Virus record (IMG/VR): IMGVR_UViG_3300032238_000317
Coordinates: 1 to 56,992 of that record
Strand: one strand, 5' to 3'
DNA from: a virus
DNA length: 56,992 nt
Position 1 is the first letter of the stretch. Each line of letters begins with the position of its first letter. A model generated the notes under the pieces. It saw only the letters and a program-made list of their open reading frames with translations, was not told the origin of the DNA and ran no database searches. Positions 42,077 through 50,145 of this stretch are shown one piece after another. The position numbers and the translations under genes were made by a program.

Positions 42077-44536
42077 TTAACCGCCAGTACTGCAATTTTG
42101 ATTTGATATTATTACAGAGGATGGGGGTAATGGAGTATCACTTGAGCATCCAGAACCTTGACATTCTGCACTGCATGTTCCATTTTGTATCAAAGCACCA
42201 GATGAGCATTCCACGGTTCCCTGTTCTTCATTTGCAGATCTGTTGCAGCAAGAGCAAGGATCTGTAATATTTGCATAATTTGAAGAGGAACTATCAATCA
42301 AACGGGGTTTATTGCCTACCATTTCAAAACATTTGTTATTTACTATTTCTGTAAATTTTAACTTGTTTCCTTCGACTGTATCAGATTGATTACAATCCAA
42401 ATAGAATGTATCTGTTCCCATGTATGGAGTAGCGCAAGCACCATATAGTGCGCCAAGTTCTGGATTACAGTTAGTTGTTGAAAATGGTCCTGCCGTATTC
42501 TTCAGATAGCAATTATTTAAACAATCAGTATCTGTAGGTGAGCAACCACATAACATTTCAGCAAGAGTCGTATCGGTATCTGTGCATTTTACATGACTTA
42601 ACAAATAACGAACATCATATGGTTCTTCTGCTAGTTCTAGATTGCAATCCAAAATATCTTGTGGTAAGTATTTTGATTTGAAGCAAGGATCATTGATGTC
42701 ATCATATCCCGTGCATGCCAAGAAATTTTCTTGATTGAAAGTCCATTGATTCAAATCATTTTTCTCAAAAACATTTGAGCAAATAGAATTGCATTGAGGA
42801 TCATTTAAACGGAATGCATTTGAGCAACTATTATCTGGACCTGGTGCAGATAATGAATTATCTACAATAGGATTTTTTGCACTGATCATTCCTAGACCAG
42901 ATTCCACATCATAATACCAAAGTATGGATGTGTTTCTTAGAATTGTATCTGGTTCACCAGTGCAATCCTCATAACATGGAATGTATCCATATGTGCCAGG
43001 TCTTGCGAGTCCATTATCTGGTTTATCACAAGAACAATTCTGATTGATGCATGGTGTCTTGCATCCTGATGTGCATCCAAGGCCTGGTGCAAAAGATTTC
43101 ATTGGTGTTATGCCGATGCTACCACCATATGAACCAATTATTGTACTACCAGAACAGCAACTGTGGAATTTTTCAATAAATGTATATCCATCTGTTGGGG
43201 CAGATTCATTTGAACACGCGCAGTTATTCAACAGATCCATTGTTGGTGGCACGAATGCAATTGCAGAGGAACCATCTTTAAATGTTACTGTTGGTGCATA
43301 TTTTGTTTCATCCCAACCCCACCAGTTCTCCCAGAAATCTGCATCCTGTACTATGCTATTTCCTGCTCCATCATCGGTGATACTTGGTGGATATGCTGGT
43401 CCAATTCCCGCATATGTTCCATTAGAAATTGGAGAAGCAGAATTATATCCACCATATGTGTTGTTAAATTGTCCATTTGTTAAATTTACCAAGAACTGAC
43501 ATGATACTGGCGTATTCTTTGCACATGTTGGACAATCAGCATAACTTTCAATTGCTTCATCTTGCCATACTGTACCACCGCATACGCCTGCTAGAGCGTC
43601 GGATGGTTGACGAGTAAATGAAGATGCGGAGCAATATTTCTTTCCGTTTGATTTCTTAAACAGGAATACTGCTCCAGAAGCATCGTAATCAAAGTTTTCT
43701 ATTCCTGCTGCGTTCATGTAGTATGAACTCAATAATGCATCTGGTTGTTCTTCAAAATCTGTAAATTCTGGACATTCGCTTGTGCCGTATTTTGATAGAC
43801 ATTTCTTTGGATTTATAGAAATTACTGTACCTGTTCCAGCAGAGCAGAATAGAGTTGGACTTGAAGTTGGGCAGCCTGGTGTACCAGATGTTAAGATGGT
43901 AAATGAACCATCTATGATTTCGTTTCCATCATTTGTTGTTAGTCCGAGTAATGGAAATGATGTTGCATTTGCTGCATGATATCCTGCACCATAAACTGCT
44001 CCTGCGGGATACACCATCACAGGTGTTCCTGATATGGAACCTTTTCCATATCCAAAATGAGCATTTGATACTGGGAATGCACCAATTATGTGTCCTGTTT
44101 CACAACCAACCGCAACCATCCACCCACCATTTAATGGATTTGAATAGAAATTATTTGCTTGAAGTCCTATCCAATAACCAGAACCAAGTCCTGCTGTATT
44201 TACAGCAGGATAACCCGTAGTGGACGAACAAGCACAACTTCTTGATGGCGGAGTTGACACACAGGTAAAACATGTGCATGGATTTTCGTAATCCGTGCAT
44301 CCTGGCGCGGGTATAGGAACTGAGCAATTTTCGCATACATCAACAGGAGGATTTGCATTCAATTTAGAACACTTAAAGCAAGTACCTTGTAGTTTGCTAA
44401 GATACGCTTTATCTCTGTGTACTATATCTGGATTTGCAACTTCTTCAGAAGAAGATAATAGAATAGTTATTCTGTTTTTAGCAGTTTCTTTTGCTACTCG
44501 TTTTGGTTCTGTTTTTACTGCTACTACGAAGTCCAT
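42077..44536 (-). CDS. Large cysteine-rich protein in the head gene cluster
   Basis: An 819-residue protein with 54 cysteines by my count (6.6%), many in CxxC, CC or CxC pairs (CFKC, CENC, CTCFTC, CACS, CSCDK, CGCS, CSCC). It begins with ~45 non-Cys residues (MDFVVAVKTEPKRVAKETAKNRITILLSSSEEV) and has many Gly/Tyr/Trp/Asn segments resembling extracellular beta modules. There is no signal peptide or membrane helix. The cysteines may bind zinc while in the cell or form disulphides in the released virion. It lies between gp20 and the gp21-gp23 genes, so a virion or head-decoration role is likely but unproven. No family recognised. Confidence 0.75.
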   Translation of the reverse strand: MDFVVAVKTEPKRVAKETAKNRITILLSSSEEVANPDIVHRDKAYLSKLQGTCFKCSKLNANPPVDVCENCSVPIPAPGCTDYENPCTCFTCVSTPPSRSCACSSTTGYPAVNTAGLGSGYWIGLQANNFYSNPLNGGWMVAVGCETGHIIGAFPVSNAHFGYGKGSISGTPVMVYPAGAVYGAGYHAANATSFPLLGLTTNDGNEIIDGSFTILTSGTPGCPTSSPTLFCSAGTGTVISINPKKCLSKYGTSECPEFTDFEEQPDALLSSYYMNAAGIENFDYDASGAVFLFKKSNGKKYCSASSFTRQPSDALAGVCGGTVWQDEAIESYADCPTCAKNTPVSCQFLVNLTNGQFNNTYGGYNSASPISNGTYAGIGPAYPPSITDDGAGNSIVQDADFWENWWGWDETKYAPTVTFKDGSSAIAFVPPTMDLLNNCACSNESAPTDGYTFIEKFHSCCSGSTIIGSYGGSIGITPMKSFAPGLGCTSGCKTPCINQNCSCDKPDNGLARPGTYGYIPCYEDCTGEPDTILRNTSILWYYDVESGLGMISAKNPIVDNSLSAPGPDNSCSNAFRLNDPQCNSICSNVFEKNDLNQWTFNQENFLACTGYDDINDPCFKSKYLPQDILDCNLELAEEPYDVRYLLSHVKCTDTDTTLAEMLCGCSPTDTDCLNNCYLKNTAGPFSTTNCNPELGALYGACATPYMGTDTFYLDCNQSDTVEGNKLKFTEIVNNKCFEMVGNKPRLIDSSSSNYANITDPCSCCNRSANEEQGTVECSSGALIQNGTCSAECQGSGCSSDTPLPPSSVIISNQNCSTGG

Positions 44537-44546
44537 GTATATTCTC

Positions 44547-45089
44547 TTATCTTGTTACATTTGGTGTAATAATGAATCTTCCTTGTTGAATTCTATAAAC
44601 AACTTTCTTTGGATGGGATATGGTATCTTGTGCATATACGATTTCGATATCGTATAGAGGTTTACCATAATCAATACCTTCCATGTAAATTGCATCAATT
44701 GTAATAATGATGTTTGGATCGGTTTGTGTTGTTCCACCATCCCCTAATTGAATATCAATAGGAAAGGTATCTACACCATATCCAGACACACCATATAGCG
44801 TCAATCCAGAATCAGAAGTAAAACCAATTACATCTGTTGGGGGTGTTATTGGTAATACTGTTCCATCAACACTATCTCTGACTTGCATTCTTATGAATGC
44901 TTTGCATAGACTGTTTCCAGAAGAGTCGATAAAGCGATCTTCAAATCCTTCTGGCAATTGTGCTACTGGAATATAACCATTCTCATCACCTTTAAGATTC
45001 AGAGCATTTCCGTTTTTATCTGCAAGAGTCAGGTACATTCTGAAAGTAGAACCCTGCTCTGCTTGTACATCATAATAGGCTGCTGACAT
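44547..45089 (-). CDS. Structural domain protein after gp20
   Basis: A 180-residue protein starting MSAAYYDVQAEQGSTFRMYLTLADKNGN; this ATG overlaps the end of gp20 by 20 bases and is preferred over an in-frame start 69 bases earlier inside gp20. The C-terminal GIDYGKPLYDIEIV then RIQQGRFIITPNVTR matches in pattern the 131-residue protein at 22423-22818, so both carry the same baseplate/fibre-like domain. Its job next to the portal gene may be tied to the Cys-rich protein that follows 11 bases downstream. Confidence 0.68.
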   Translation of the reverse strand: MSAAYYDVQAEQGSTFRMYLTLADKNGNALNLKGDENGYIPVAQLPEGFEDRFIDSSGNSLCKAFIRMQVRDSVDGTVLPITPPTDVIGFTSDSGLTLYGVSGYGVDTFPIDIQLGDGGTTQTDPNIIITIDAIYMEGIDYGKPLYDIEIVYAQDTISHPKKVVYRIQQGRFIITPNVTR

Positions 45090-46566
45090 TGAAGTTTGCT
45101 CCTCCGCTTGATGGTGCTGCTTGTGGTAGTTCAGAACCAACCGCTGGTGGTTGTCCACCCGCTGCTACTTGTTGCTGTTGCGAATCAAGTTGCATTGCTA
45201 GTTGCTGTTGTTCCACGCGCTCTTTATTTATTTCATCCTGCATTGCATCTGCTTCTTGTTCTGTCATTTGCAGAATTGTCTTACGAATCCATTTCTCGGA
45301 GAAGAACTTACCAGAGAAATCACCAACATCGCGCAGAATAGAAAGTCTTTCTTTCATCATTTCAATGTTCTTTGACTCGGCAAAGTAAGAATCAGATGAG
45401 AAATCAAAACGAATGTTTTGTGAAATATCTTCCCAATCTTCTTGATTCATTATGCCCTTGGCAAGCAATTGAATTCTCATTATGTTCAAGAACATTTCGG
45501 CAAACTTCATACGAAGTTTTGCAATAAACTTTGTGAACTTAAGTTCGTCACGGGTGATTTCGGATGCTCTACCCATGTTGAATCCATTCTCTGCTTCCAT
45601 TCTGGAAATAGGAATGTTCAATGCTCTATAAAGTTTCTTTTGGAAGTACTTTACATCTTCCATTTCACCGAGGTTTTGACCGCCAGGTAGGGTTTCGATT
45701 GATGTACCTTTACCACCTTCGCGGCGAGGTAACCAATAATCTTCCAACATATGCATGGTGCGACGATCATCACGAACTTCACCTGTTGCTGCATCATAAG
45801 TTACCTTATTGCGGTAACGATTCATGATCTCGCGGAGATATTGTTCTGCTTTATTCTTCGGTAGAGAACCAACATCAATATAGAAGATTCTGCGTTCTGG
45901 AGCGCGAGAGATGCGATAGATTACTACTGCATCTTCGATCATTCTCAGTTGATTGAGTGGTTTGATTACTTTATGAAGGTAACTGTATACTCTCTTGCTG
46001 TTTCTTTCCAAAAGACCAGAATGAACATAACTTACGGAATCTGCGGTAAGACGAATACCTGTTGTATTTCCGTAAGTGATGATTGGTGTGTTTGGAGAAG
46101 GAGAGATGAACTTGTCGTAGTTTGAATATAGGTAATATTCTCTTACTGATTCTACGGTTTGAACTTTGGTAAGTTGATCTGTCTTTTTCTTTATTTCCGT
46201 GATCTTCTTGATCTTGAGAGGATCAATTTGAATGATTTTTTGTATACCTTCTTTTGGATTGTTTTCATCTAATACACAAAAATGATACATTCTTCCATCA
46301 ACATACCATTGACGAAATAGATCGTATCCCTTTTTATTAAAATTTAATAGGTAAAGAATACGATTGAATTCTTCGCTTATTTTCTTTTTAGTCGATGCAG
46401 ATATACCCTTTGCATTATCAAGATCTAACTTGATTAGAGTTCCTTCCACATCTTCAGTTACTGCTTCGTTGACAATATCGTCAATTGCAATTTCAACTTC
46501 CGCATGTCCACTGATTTCACGATACTTACGAATTAGATCTATATCTGATCTAAGATTCGTATCCAT
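45070..46566 (-). CDS. gp20: Portal protein gp20 (main reading frame)
   Basis: A 498-residue portal vertex protein through which DNA enters and leaves the head. SDIDLIRKYREISGHAEVEIAIDDIVNEA, RQWYVDGRMYHFCVLDENNPKEGIQKI, YLHKVIKPLNQLRMIEDAVVIYRISRAPERRIFYIDVG and MEDVKYFQKKLYRALNIPISRM are conserved. T4 gp20 (524 residues) has ~70 residues before the aligned start; here the first ATG lacks them. The same frame is open further upstream apart from one TAA (see next entry). The C-terminus is Gln-rich. Confidence 0.95.
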   Translation of the reverse strand: MDTNLRSDIDLIRKYREISGHAEVEIAIDDIVNEAVTEDVEGTLIKLDLDNAKGISASTKKKISEEFNRILYLLNFNKKGYDLFRQWYVDGRMYHFCVLDENNPKEGIQKIIQIDPLKIKKITEIKKKTDQLTKVQTVESVREYYLYSNYDKFISPSPNTPIITYGNTTGIRLTADSVSYVHSGLLERNSKRVYSYLHKVIKPLNQLRMIEDAVVIYRISRAPERRIFYIDVGSLPKNKAEQYLREIMNRYRNKVTYDAATGEVRDDRRTMHMLEDYWLPRREGGKGTSIETLPGGQNLGEMEDVKYFQKKLYRALNIPISRMEAENGFNMGRASEITRDELKFTKFIAKLRMKFAEMFLNIMRIQLLAKGIMNQEDWEDISQNIRFDFSSDSYFAESKNIEMMKERLSILRDVGDFSGKFFSEKWIRKTILQMTEQEADAMQDEINKERVEQQQLAMQLDSQQQQVAAGGQPPAVGSELPQAAPSSGGANFNVSSLL

Positions 46567-46707
46567 ATCAATAGCATAACCTTGCGCGTTTCCACCCGCC
46601 TCTAGGATTGTGGAACCGTCCGCAAAGTCTGCTTCTGGTGTTACTGGTTTGTTTTGGATTTCTTATTTCTTTTTACCGAAAGAGAATCCGAAAAATTGAA
46701 TTGCCAT
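46567..46707 (-). other. gp20: N-terminal part of gp20 interrupted by an in-frame TAA
   Basis: An ATG at 46707 with GGAG 7 bases upstream opens the gp20 frame: MAIQFFGFSFGKKK, then TAA at 46665-46663, then 32 codons without stop (EIQNKPVTPEADFADG, EAGGNAQGYAID) running straight into the gp20 ORF. The peptide looks like a portal N-terminus. It could mean read-through, a sequence error, a mutated start region with re-initiation, or a short leader peptide. Confidence 0.7.
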
Positions 46708-46717
46708 TATAAAGCTC

Positions 46718-46735
46718 CAAGTAAGTTATTACTTG
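46718..46735 (-). promoter_or_regulatory. Hairpin upstream of the gp20 ribosome binding site
   Basis: CAAGTAA and TTACTTG form a 7-bp stem with a 4-base loop directly before GGAG of the gp20 leader. There is no T run, so it is not a terminator; it may act on translation or RNA stability. Confidence 0.4.
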
Positions 46736-46761
46736 AATATGTATGTCTCACGAACCAAATC

Positions 46762-47526
46762 TTATCTGCTGGCAAATCCTACACCGAATGCGGAGTTACC
46801 ATTTCCATAACCAAAGGAGAATCCAGAACCATTTGGTCCAGAACCAAAGGATACTCCGAATCCTTGTCCACCCGCACCACTGCCACCGAAACCATTGTTA
46901 CCAAATCCGAATCCGTTTCCTGCTCCAGATAGGCCAGGTACTACTGCGCCAGGATTACCAAATCCTTGGCCACCAATTCCTGCTGCACTATTTACTGGAG
47001 AGTTATCGTTGACGAAGTGAGAGTAACCAAAGGTAACAGTGAATTCAGAAACTGCATCATTGTTATCATATGCAAGATCAACAGATGATACATCTCTTGG
47101 GAACATATCAAAGAACTGATATGCTCTTGTTGGTTGATAAGACTTATTCAATTGTGTTACAACTGCGGAACCAAAGATTTGTCTTGGGTTTGGATAAGCA
47201 GTTGCATTTCCTGCAAATGTATTGAACTGTTCGTGCCAGAACTCCATTGCTCTACGAAGATTCATATCTTGAGTATTCAAGATGGTGATTGTAAAGTCTT
47301 CGAATGTTCTGTCGCCAGGATACTTTGCTTGTCTTCCGAGGTATGGAACAGTGATTTCGCCCAAGATGGATGAAGGTAACTGTGTGCTACGGCAGAAGAA
47401 TTGAAGTTGCGAGAACGCTGGATTTAATGCTGCTAAGCCAGGACATGCTAGGACGAAGGTGTAGAGGTTTGGTCTTGCACCACCGTCAAAGTTGGTCATG
47501 AATGAGTTAATACTTGAGTCGGCCAT
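46762..47526 (-). CDS. gp19: Tail tube protein gp19 with Gly-rich C-terminal extension
   Basis: A 254-residue tail tube subunit. Residues 1-174 fit the gp19 fold (RPNLYTFVLACPGLAALN, FFCRSTQLPSSILGEITVPYLGRQAKYPGDRTFEDFTITILN, EFTVTFGYSHF); T4 gp19 has 163 residues. Residues 175-254 are an added Gly/Phe/Asn-rich tail (repeats like GFGNNGFGGSGAGGQGFG). A GATAAATA late box and AGGAGA precede the start. Confidence 0.92.
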   Translation of the reverse strand: MADSSINSFMTNFDGGARPNLYTFVLACPGLAALNPAFSQLQFFCRSTQLPSSILGEITVPYLGRQAKYPGDRTFEDFTITILNTQDMNLRRAMEFWHEQFNTFAGNATAYPNPRQIFGSAVVTQLNKSYQPTRAYQFFDMFPRDVSSVDLAYDNNDAVSEFTVTFGYSHFVNDNSPVNSAAGIGGQGFGNPGAVVPGLSGAGNGFGFGNNGFGGSGAGGQGFGVSFGSGPNGSGFSFGYGNGNSAFGVGFASR

Positions 47527-47545
47527 TTGTTTCTCCTGTTTCCTT

Positions 47546-47553
47546 TATTTATC
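47546..47553 (-). promoter_or_regulatory. T4-type late promoter box GATAAATA before gp19
   Basis: GATAAATA on the minus strand, 20 bases before the gp19 ATG, with CAGGAG between. It lies in the 51-base gap after the sheath gene. Confidence 0.65.
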
Positions 47554-47577
47554 CTACTTTTTAGTAAAAACCCTGTT

Positions 47578-50145
47578 TTATCCGCCGTATTCTGCGAAGG
47601 AAACACCTGTTGGTGTTGCAACGAAGTTGAGTTGGATGAAGTTGATGGAACGATTTGGTGCAACAAAGATATCTGCAACGAATCTGTTGGAGTCGATGAC
47701 AGTTGGTGTATTGTTGCTTTCATCACATACAACTGAGTAGGATGTCAGACCTCTCTTACCTTGAACTTCGCGGAGGAAAGGTTCTACCAATTGCTTGAAT
47801 TGTGAACGAGTAAATGCATCGTTGAATTCGAAGAGTTGGAACTTGGCAGCAGTTGCGATAGACTTCTCAAGGACATTGAAGAGTCTACGAACATTGATGC
47901 GATCAAATGCACTTGGTTTCTTTTGTAGAGTCTTATCACCAAAGAGAATGACTCCGAAACCTTGAGATGTGATCACTGGGTTTACATTCTTCTTATAGAG
48001 AATATCGCGTTCATCCTTGTTTGGATTGAATACGAGTTTGACTACATTGAGAATGCGTCCGCGATCATATCCTGCTGGTGACCACCAAGGATCCTTTTGA
48101 TTATCTGTACGAACCGCACATCCTGCGGAATCTGCACAGAGTGGAATGTAACGATAGACATTATTGAATCTATCGTATTGATACTTATAACCAGAATCCA
48201 TTGCGCCATAGGAAGAAGAACCCATTGCATCAACAAAGTCCGTTATACCTTCTAACAAGTCTGCTCTTGCACCACCAATTAGATCTAGACTATGGCAAGC
48301 AGATACGAATGCAATAGAATCTTTTCTATTTTCTGCAATTGCAACCAAGGAATTCAAATCCGAAGGAATTGTTGTATTATATCCAACAAGAATAGAAATA
48401 TCGGATTCATCTGCATCACCAAACGATGTTTGATATTGTTCTAGAATTCTTGCAGATACTGCTGCGGTAGAAGAATTAAATTGATTGTTTCTTCCTGCAA
48501 CATCTCCTGCAACAAGTGTGCAGATGGCAGTGCCAATTGGATCTTCATAACCTAAAAGTGTAGCAAATGCTGCTGGAGTATTTCCTGCAAAATTTGTACC
48601 CCATTCCAAACCACTATTTGGTGTAAATTGAAGATCTGCATCTTTATCACCTACCCAAATATATTGTGATTTGTTATTAATTACACTTGCCCAATAGTTT
48701 GTCGTTCCATCGGACTTCTTTGCATCTCCTGCAACTGAAAGTCCTTCGTATGTTTCCAATACTTGATTCTTTACACCTGTTATAGAACCTGTAAGATCTA
48801 TTATGGCAACATGTATTTCGTCACCACTGAATCCGTATTGCGATGCTTGATCTGTTGTATCTGGATAATTAGCAAATACATCAAATGTATTTTTTGCCCA
48901 CTGTGGATATGGGGTGGTATATAGAGAATTTGTATCTCTTGTTGTGGTAATATAAGTATCGGTGAATCCTTTACCGTATATTACGATACCTACACCGTTT
49001 AGATAAGTGCCAGGATACTTAGAATAGAATGTTGCGGTGGACAAGTCTCCACCCATCGACATCGTTTCAAAGTGTTCTCTGTTTTTAATTTGTACAAATG
49101 AACCTGTAGGTGGAATAACAGATTCCAAACCAATAGTAATTTGACGAACTGTTTCTCTTGCTAGAGTCTGCACTACCTCAAAATATGCAGTTGCGTTGTT
49201 ATAATATGAGACTTTTTCAGTTTCAGTAGTAGGCCTGGATGTTAAATTGTAACCAACACTATTTTTCAACAAAGTTGTGGTTGCAAATGTAACTTTATCA
49301 AATAATGTTTTAAAATTATTAATATTTGATTGGAAATAATATCCATTAGGATCTACATTATATATATCCAATGCATTCGATAATGCATCCAAGGCATCGA
49401 CAAGTCTTTGTTTTAACAAAAAATAATTTATATTAGTGCTATTACTAGCGTATGATGCAACAAGATCTGCTTGACTATAATCTCTAATATTATTTCCATC
49501 GGCATCAATATATCTATCATCAATATGACCATCACAGTCGCAATCAAAATATACAGTTAAAGTGGTGAGTCTGGTTAGACCGTTACTTGTCCATATAGTT
49601 GCACCTGTTCCAGTTGATGTATTTGAAGCATAGACTGATGTATTCGTTCCAGCATACAAAGTATTTACACTACTGGCAAAATAACTGTTATTTATTACAA
49701 CAGATTGAGGTGCAACATATCTTGCATCGGATACGCCAATGGGAGATCCGTTTTTGTAGCATCCGTATAGTGGTCCTCTATAAACATAGACATCCCCACC
49801 ATCATTATGAGAATCGGGATATGATTTAATAGAAACAGAATTTGCATCATTACCATTTGTAGCATCAAAGGTCGTAGCATCACTTACGCTTCTTACGACT
49901 TGTAGATTACCACCATATGTCAAGAAGTTTGATGCCATCATCCACGATGTTGCATAATATGGATCGTTTAATGGTTTGAAGAAAATGCTTTCTAGTTGTT
50001 TTTCGGTGTTGACGAGAACTCTTTGATCTGCTGGTCCCCATTGAAATAAACCAACATACCCTGCTGGTGTGGTGGAAACTGCTGGAACTATTGCAGTAAG
50101 ATCGAATTCTCTAACTTGTACGCCTGGGCTGACTTGAAATGCCAT
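47578..50145 (-). CDS. gp18: Contractile tail sheath gp18
   Basis: An 855-residue sheath protein. The N-terminal SPGVQVREFDLTAIVPAVSTTPAGYVGLFQWGP and the C-terminal FDRINVRRLFNVLEKSIATAAKFQLFEFNDAFTRSQFKQLVEPFLREVQGKRGLTSYSVVCDESNN are typical. T4 gp18 has 659 residues; the added length is in the middle (about 90-330). That insertion carries an EF-hand-like stretch, DCDCDGHIDD (201-210) and DADGNNIRDYSQADL (214-228). Preceded by AAGGAGA and a terminator after gp17. Confidence 0.95.
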   Translation of the reverse strand: MAFQVSPGVQVREFDLTAIVPAVSTTPAGYVGLFQWGPADQRVLVNTEKQLESIFFKPLNDPYYATSWMMASNFLTYGGNLQVVRSVSDATTFDATNGNDANSVSIKSYPDSHNDGGDVYVYRGPLYGCYKNGSPIGVSDARYVAPQSVVINNSYFASSVNTLYAGTNTSVYASNTSTGTGATIWTSNGLTRLTTLTVYFDCDCDGHIDDRYIDADGNNIRDYSQADLVASYASNSTNINYFLLKQRLVDALDALSNALDIYNVDPNGYYFQSNINNFKTLFDKVTFATTTLLKNSVGYNLTSRPTTETEKVSYYNNATAYFEVVQTLARETVRQITIGLESVIPPTGSFVQIKNREHFETMSMGGDLSTATFYSKYPGTYLNGVGIVIYGKGFTDTYITTTRDTNSLYTTPYPQWAKNTFDVFANYPDTTDQASQYGFSGDEIHVAIIDLTGSITGVKNQVLETYEGLSVAGDAKKSDGTTNYWASVINNKSQYIWVGDKDADLQFTPNSGLEWGTNFAGNTPAAFATLLGYEDPIGTAICTLVAGDVAGRNNQFNSSTAAVSARILEQYQTSFGDADESDISILVGYNTTIPSDLNSLVAIAENRKDSIAFVSACHSLDLIGGARADLLEGITDFVDAMGSSSYGAMDSGYKYQYDRFNNVYRYIPLCADSAGCAVRTDNQKDPWWSPAGYDRGRILNVVKLVFNPNKDERDILYKKNVNPVITSQGFGVILFGDKTLQKKPSAFDRINVRRLFNVLEKSIATAAKFQLFEFNDAFTRSQFKQLVEPFLREVQGKRGLTSYSVVCDESNNTPTVIDSNRFVADIFVAPNRSINFIQLNFVATPTGVSFAEYGG

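Follow-up and report, generated by a model that had tools for sequence, protein, structure and literature searches.

An in-frame TAA within the conserved N-terminal extension of a T4-type portal gene in a metagenome-derived virus record

Organisation of the gp20 locus

We analysed a metagenome-derived IMG/VR virus record, a linear fragment of 56,992 bases (the window, meaning this whole stretch of DNA), at the 5′ end of its minus-strand portal gene gp20. The 498-codon open reading frame of gp20 gives a full-domain match to the T4-like portal family PHROG 213 (E 4e-186, profile positions 54-512 of 528) and also matches T4 gp20 structures (E about 1e-110), with an alignment that enters T4 gp20 at residue 69. 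Matches from cultured phages across the neighbourhood are annotated as portal, tail tube and tail sheath. The portals of T4 (gp20) and of T4-like phages of cyanobacteria, Pelagibacter and Methylophilales (Kyanoviridae) share PHROG 213 with the window, their neighbours are likewise sheath, tube and portal genes, and the whisker and helix region at their N-termini is homologous to that of the window. Upstream of gp20, the tail-tube gene (46762-47526, minus strand) encodes 254 residues in all, including a long Gly/Phe-rich C-terminal tail; T4 gp19 has about 163 residues. Between the portal gene and a putative prohead protease gene lies a Cys-rich 819-residue open reading frame (42077-44536, minus strand).

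Reading of the minus strand agrees with the layout proposed in the initial annotation, in which an ATG at 46707 behind GGAG is followed by 14 codons, a TAA and an open frame that continues into the 498-codon ORF. Beyond the TAA the gp20 frame runs for 32 codons without a stop, reaches a methionine at 46566 and stays open to the TGA at 45072-45070. The features of the locus are as follows.

46718..46735, minus strand: small 7-bp hairpin CAAGTAA-TAAC-TTACTTG, ending on the first G of GGAG
46715..46718, minus strand: GGAG Shine-Dalgarno sequence 7 bases before ATG 46707, read directly and kept in the nearest relatives
46666..46707, minus strand: 14 codons assigned by homology to the N-termini of about 130 relatives as the true gp20 5′ end, MAIQFFGFSFGKKK
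46663..46665, minus strand: in-frame TAA at codon 15, in a variable linker where relatives have a sense codon or a linker gap
46567..46662, minus strand: 32 post-stop codons, still conserved as portal protein, whose synonymous and non-synonymous differences resemble those between relatives
46569..46637 (core 46633-46573), minus strand: hairpin within the gp20 coding sequence, 26-94 nt past the stop, found in stop-free relatives too
45070..46566, minus strand: remaining gp20, 498 codons from Met 46566 to TGA, matching PHROG 213 and T4 gp20

The small hairpin that had been placed upstream of the gp20 ribosome-binding site is present and, judged by eye, is kept in the nearest clade; the 71-nt segment that contains it has ordinary stability (z -0.8). 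In the eight relatives L001-L008 this hairpin sits in a conserved block, TACATATTCA.GTA...TACTTGGAG.

The portal N-terminus and the downstream ATG

We compared N-termini across 79 related portal loci and about 51 more (8 of 59 in the second set being repeated contigs), and found an uninterrupted N-terminal extension in every one of these approximately 130 loci and a stop in none. An FGF-like motif opens the extension in nearly all cases and, in alignment with T4, falls near the T4 N-terminus, and the annotated portals of cultured phages begin at the place corresponding to 46707. Proteins of relatives align straight across the TAA in 83 tblastn alignments (67 in a stricter repeat), and the ribosome-binding site, start and first codons at 46707 are kept in the nearest clade. 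Because the alignments cross the TAA and these start-site features are retained, the interrupted extension is not a product of chance: it is encoded and homologous, yet broken by a TAA in the IMG/VR record. The proposal of an N-terminal extension that starts at 46707 and is interrupted by an in-frame TAA was thus upheld by the conserved extensions of relatives. Its named refutation was a set of relatives that begin their portal at the downstream ATG and do not conserve the sequence before it; we looked for this pattern and found the upstream region conserved as protein. On this comparative evidence the upstream stretch is the true portal N-terminus and gp20 begins at ATG 46707, such that the correct gp20 annotation would run from 46707 instead of 46566.

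The downstream methionine at 46566 is replaced by leucine in five of the ten nearest relatives (L001, L003, L004, L090 and L095). Its ATG lies directly 3′ of a strong hairpin, and the hairpin 3′ arm holds the sole nearby Shine-Dalgarno-like sequence, AAGG at 46585-46582, which is distant from the ATG; the earlier judgement that 46566 is poorly served by a Shine-Dalgarno sequence was correct. Sequence comparison indicates that ATG 46566 is not the native start. These features bear directly on a reading in which the stop is genuine and an N-terminally shortened portal arises by re-initiation at Met 46566. The ATG does open the 498-codon frame, but its ribosome-binding site is poor, a strong hairpin stands between it and the stop, and the ATG is unconserved while the 32 intervening codons are still conserved as protein. 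The N-terminus is, moreover, essential in T4, and we regard re-initiation as highly improbable.

Decoding of the TAA and a hairpin inside gp20

The 53 major ORFs of the window end in TGA (28) or TAA (25) and never in TAG, and TAG terminators are also absent among the long ORFs of two relatives (G004 and G010). Since 25 of the 53 ORFs end in TAA, this codon is an ordinary terminator and is not recoded genome-wide. The window carries no tRNA genes, so no suppressor tRNA reading TAA was seen there. Proteins of relatives cover approximately 31 kb of the window; in that portion the sole convincing interrupted gene is gp20, and no second convincing in-gene TAA of the kind expected under a TAA-as-sense code was found. 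The few other in-alignment stops in this covered portion each occur in 1-3 short alignments at about 43-60% identity, and we read them as probable shadow frames. Phage stop-codon reassignment (for example TAG to Gln, code 15) likewise places an in-frame stop inside a conserved gene, but the window differs in having a single such TAA, in using TAA to end nearly half of its ORFs and in lacking a recoding tRNA.

Among T4 and the T4-like relatives examined, the in-frame TAA at codon 15 is confined to the window copy. Comparison lends no support to programmed read-through, since the stop recurs in none of about 130 related loci. A genuine stop could still be read as sense, either through basal read-through or by an ochre-suppressor tRNA encoded in the host or in phage sequence outside the record. 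Full-length portal would then be made in smaller amounts, and each head needs just 12 copies of it. Several observations fit this explanation, including coding constraint that continues past the stop, a linker that accepts many residues, the coverage of only part of the phage genome by the record, and the proposal that putative read-through of in-frame stops is widespread in prokaryotes (PMC7918605). Against it stand the lack of a stop in any relative, the ordinary use of TAA as a terminator and the lack of a tRNA gene in the window. The strong hairpin 3′ of the stop also argues against it, since it begins 26-30 nt on, is common to stop-free relatives and is weaker here than in them. The base triplet directly after the UAA is GAA. 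We consider suppression or read-through unlikely.

A T4 gene 60-type bypass would instead leave from the AAA at codon 14 and land on the AAA at 46650-46648, joining GKKK to PVTPEADF. As in gene 60, the stop comes right after a codon (here AAA) that recurs in frame downstream, so matched codons flank the gap, and the landing Lys, five codons past the TAA, stands for an Ile otherwise invariant in the nearest clade, the one striking change in the vicinity of the stop. However, AAA makes up 3.2% of gp20 codons, and the calculated chance of meeting one within eight codons is about 23%. The skipped stretch also aligns with the coding sequence of relatives, none of which carries a stop or such a gap, in contrast to the non-coding gap absent from homologues that characterises bypassing. 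We therefore view bypass as extremely unlikely.

Nearest relatives fold a long interrupted stem at the position corresponding to window 46637-46569 (core 46633-46573, minus strand), with energies in an 80-nt window of -36 to -41 kcal/mol in L001-L005 and about -29 kcal/mol in the window and L007; the stem is broken in L008. Most near relatives carry this hairpin without a stop, usually in a stronger form (those listed are L001-L007, L090, L092 and L095), and because stop-free relatives have it, the hairpin is not there for the sake of the TAA. In the clade alignment 93% of cells pair, compared with 33-41% when the partners are slid, four pairs show changes on both sides, and no shuffle reached the observed covariation score. 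RNAalifold, unaided, recovers the same structure. To measure excess folding, we redrew synonymous codons from within each gene while keeping the amino acids unchanged. Of 43 diverse phages, 34 folded more strongly than chance in this region (p at or below 0.05), and in the nearest clade z reached about -8. In eight named phages and the window, z at the gp20 5′ end averages -3.3, compared with -0.9 in background windows. Little excess folding is seen in HTVC008M, S-SSM5 and S-CREM1, and T4 has a weak tendency. In one relative (G004), the region inside gp20 has the lowest energy of 1,996 coding-strand windows over 40 kb. An Rfam search of window positions 44000-48000 returned no match, and the literature searched describes no hairpin within gene 20 of T4-like phages. 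As judged from folding and covariation, the hairpin, which is common to many T4-like portal genes, may be an undescribed cis-acting RNA (or DNA) element of gp20. Possible roles would be to slow synthesis of a few-copy protein or to mask internal start sites; the T4 annotation lists internal-start products for genes 17 and 21.

Age and source of the stop codon

The TAA falls in a linker that varies among relatives through both substitutions and indels. In the 32 codons past the stop, the balance of synonymous and non-synonymous differences is about the same as in those codons among relatives, and a search for an error cluster or relaxed constraint around the stop found no enrichment of window-specific substitutions there. 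Because the post-stop codons show neither decay nor excess substitutions, the stop is very recent, unreal or tolerated by decoding. A single frameshift was ruled out, as the segments before and after the stop share one frame. Viral contigs were scanned by exact pattern for copies of the same virus, either allowing any codon at the stop or using the downstream sequence alone, and the contigs searched yielded none; a scan of genome contigs found no relative.

In T4, deletion of the gp20 N-terminal region inhibits head assembly (PMC4493910), and loss of 3-4 of the six whisker residues is lethal (PMC7136217). Since this region is needed in T4, a real and unsuppressed stop should kill a virulent phage, and an error or a non-viable minority sequence is for that reason the likelier source of the TAA. 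We conclude that the TAA is probably a sequencing, assembly or strain-mixture error, or else a recent non-viable or defective variant, in an otherwise normal portal gene. The three explanations originally offered for the stop fared differently: read-through and re-initiation are unsupported because relatives are stop-free, TAA is an ordinary terminator, ATG 46566 is unconserved and a hairpin separates the stop from that ATG, whereas sequencing or assembly error and a recent nonsense change are jointly favoured.

As a background for interruptions, we aligned about 545 kb of coding sequence from 131 related loci, some of them near-identical, and saw neither a true nonsense change nor a true frameshift; three candidate interruptions in relatives (L124, L108 and L021) were explained by a natural gene end and by stretches of undetermined bases. 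The absence of interruptions over this length indicates a low error rate in such contigs and, together with a covered window that is otherwise undamaged, counts against error. The scarcity of interruptions nonetheless weighs against frequent error and frequent natural nonsense alike and, because the background is low for both, the choice between them rests on priors. One form of natural nonsense would be a genuine allele in a defective genome, upheld by a co-infecting intact phage or caught soon after it arose. The rest of gp20 is intact and under normal constraint, as expected of a very young mutation, but a lethal change should be rare among virions and is an unlikely contig consensus, making this account of a defective genome rather improbable. 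Taken as a pair, error and defective allele are the most likely readings of the change.

Together, these results suggest a model in which gp20 would be a normal T4-type portal gene starting at ATG 46707, with the TAA at codon 15 representing a very recent, unprogrammed single-codon break in the variable linker that follows the whisker and helix of the N-terminus. Its source would be a base-call, assembly or strain-mixing error in the contig, or a non-viable minority variant that entered the consensus. If the stop were real and unsuppressed, translation would end after a peptide of 14 residues and leave little working portal, if any, because the re-initiation site at 46566 is poor and its product would lack the capsid-anchoring N-terminus. 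It is very unlikely that the record represents a natural virulent phage in whose essential portal gene an ochre codon is fixed and which makes full-length protein solely by suppression, read-through or bypass, a situation in which portal dose would be limited. Suppression, read-through, re-initiation and bypass are each singled out by no positive evidence.

The main use of these findings at present is corrective, and the stop needs to be checked in the reads before biology is built on the TAA. Should the TAA prove genuine and be read through, it would represent a rare case of UAA recoding governing the protein that initiates assembly and is needed in just 12 copies per head. The hairpin inside gp20 could act as a control element, so far undescribed, in portal synthesis.
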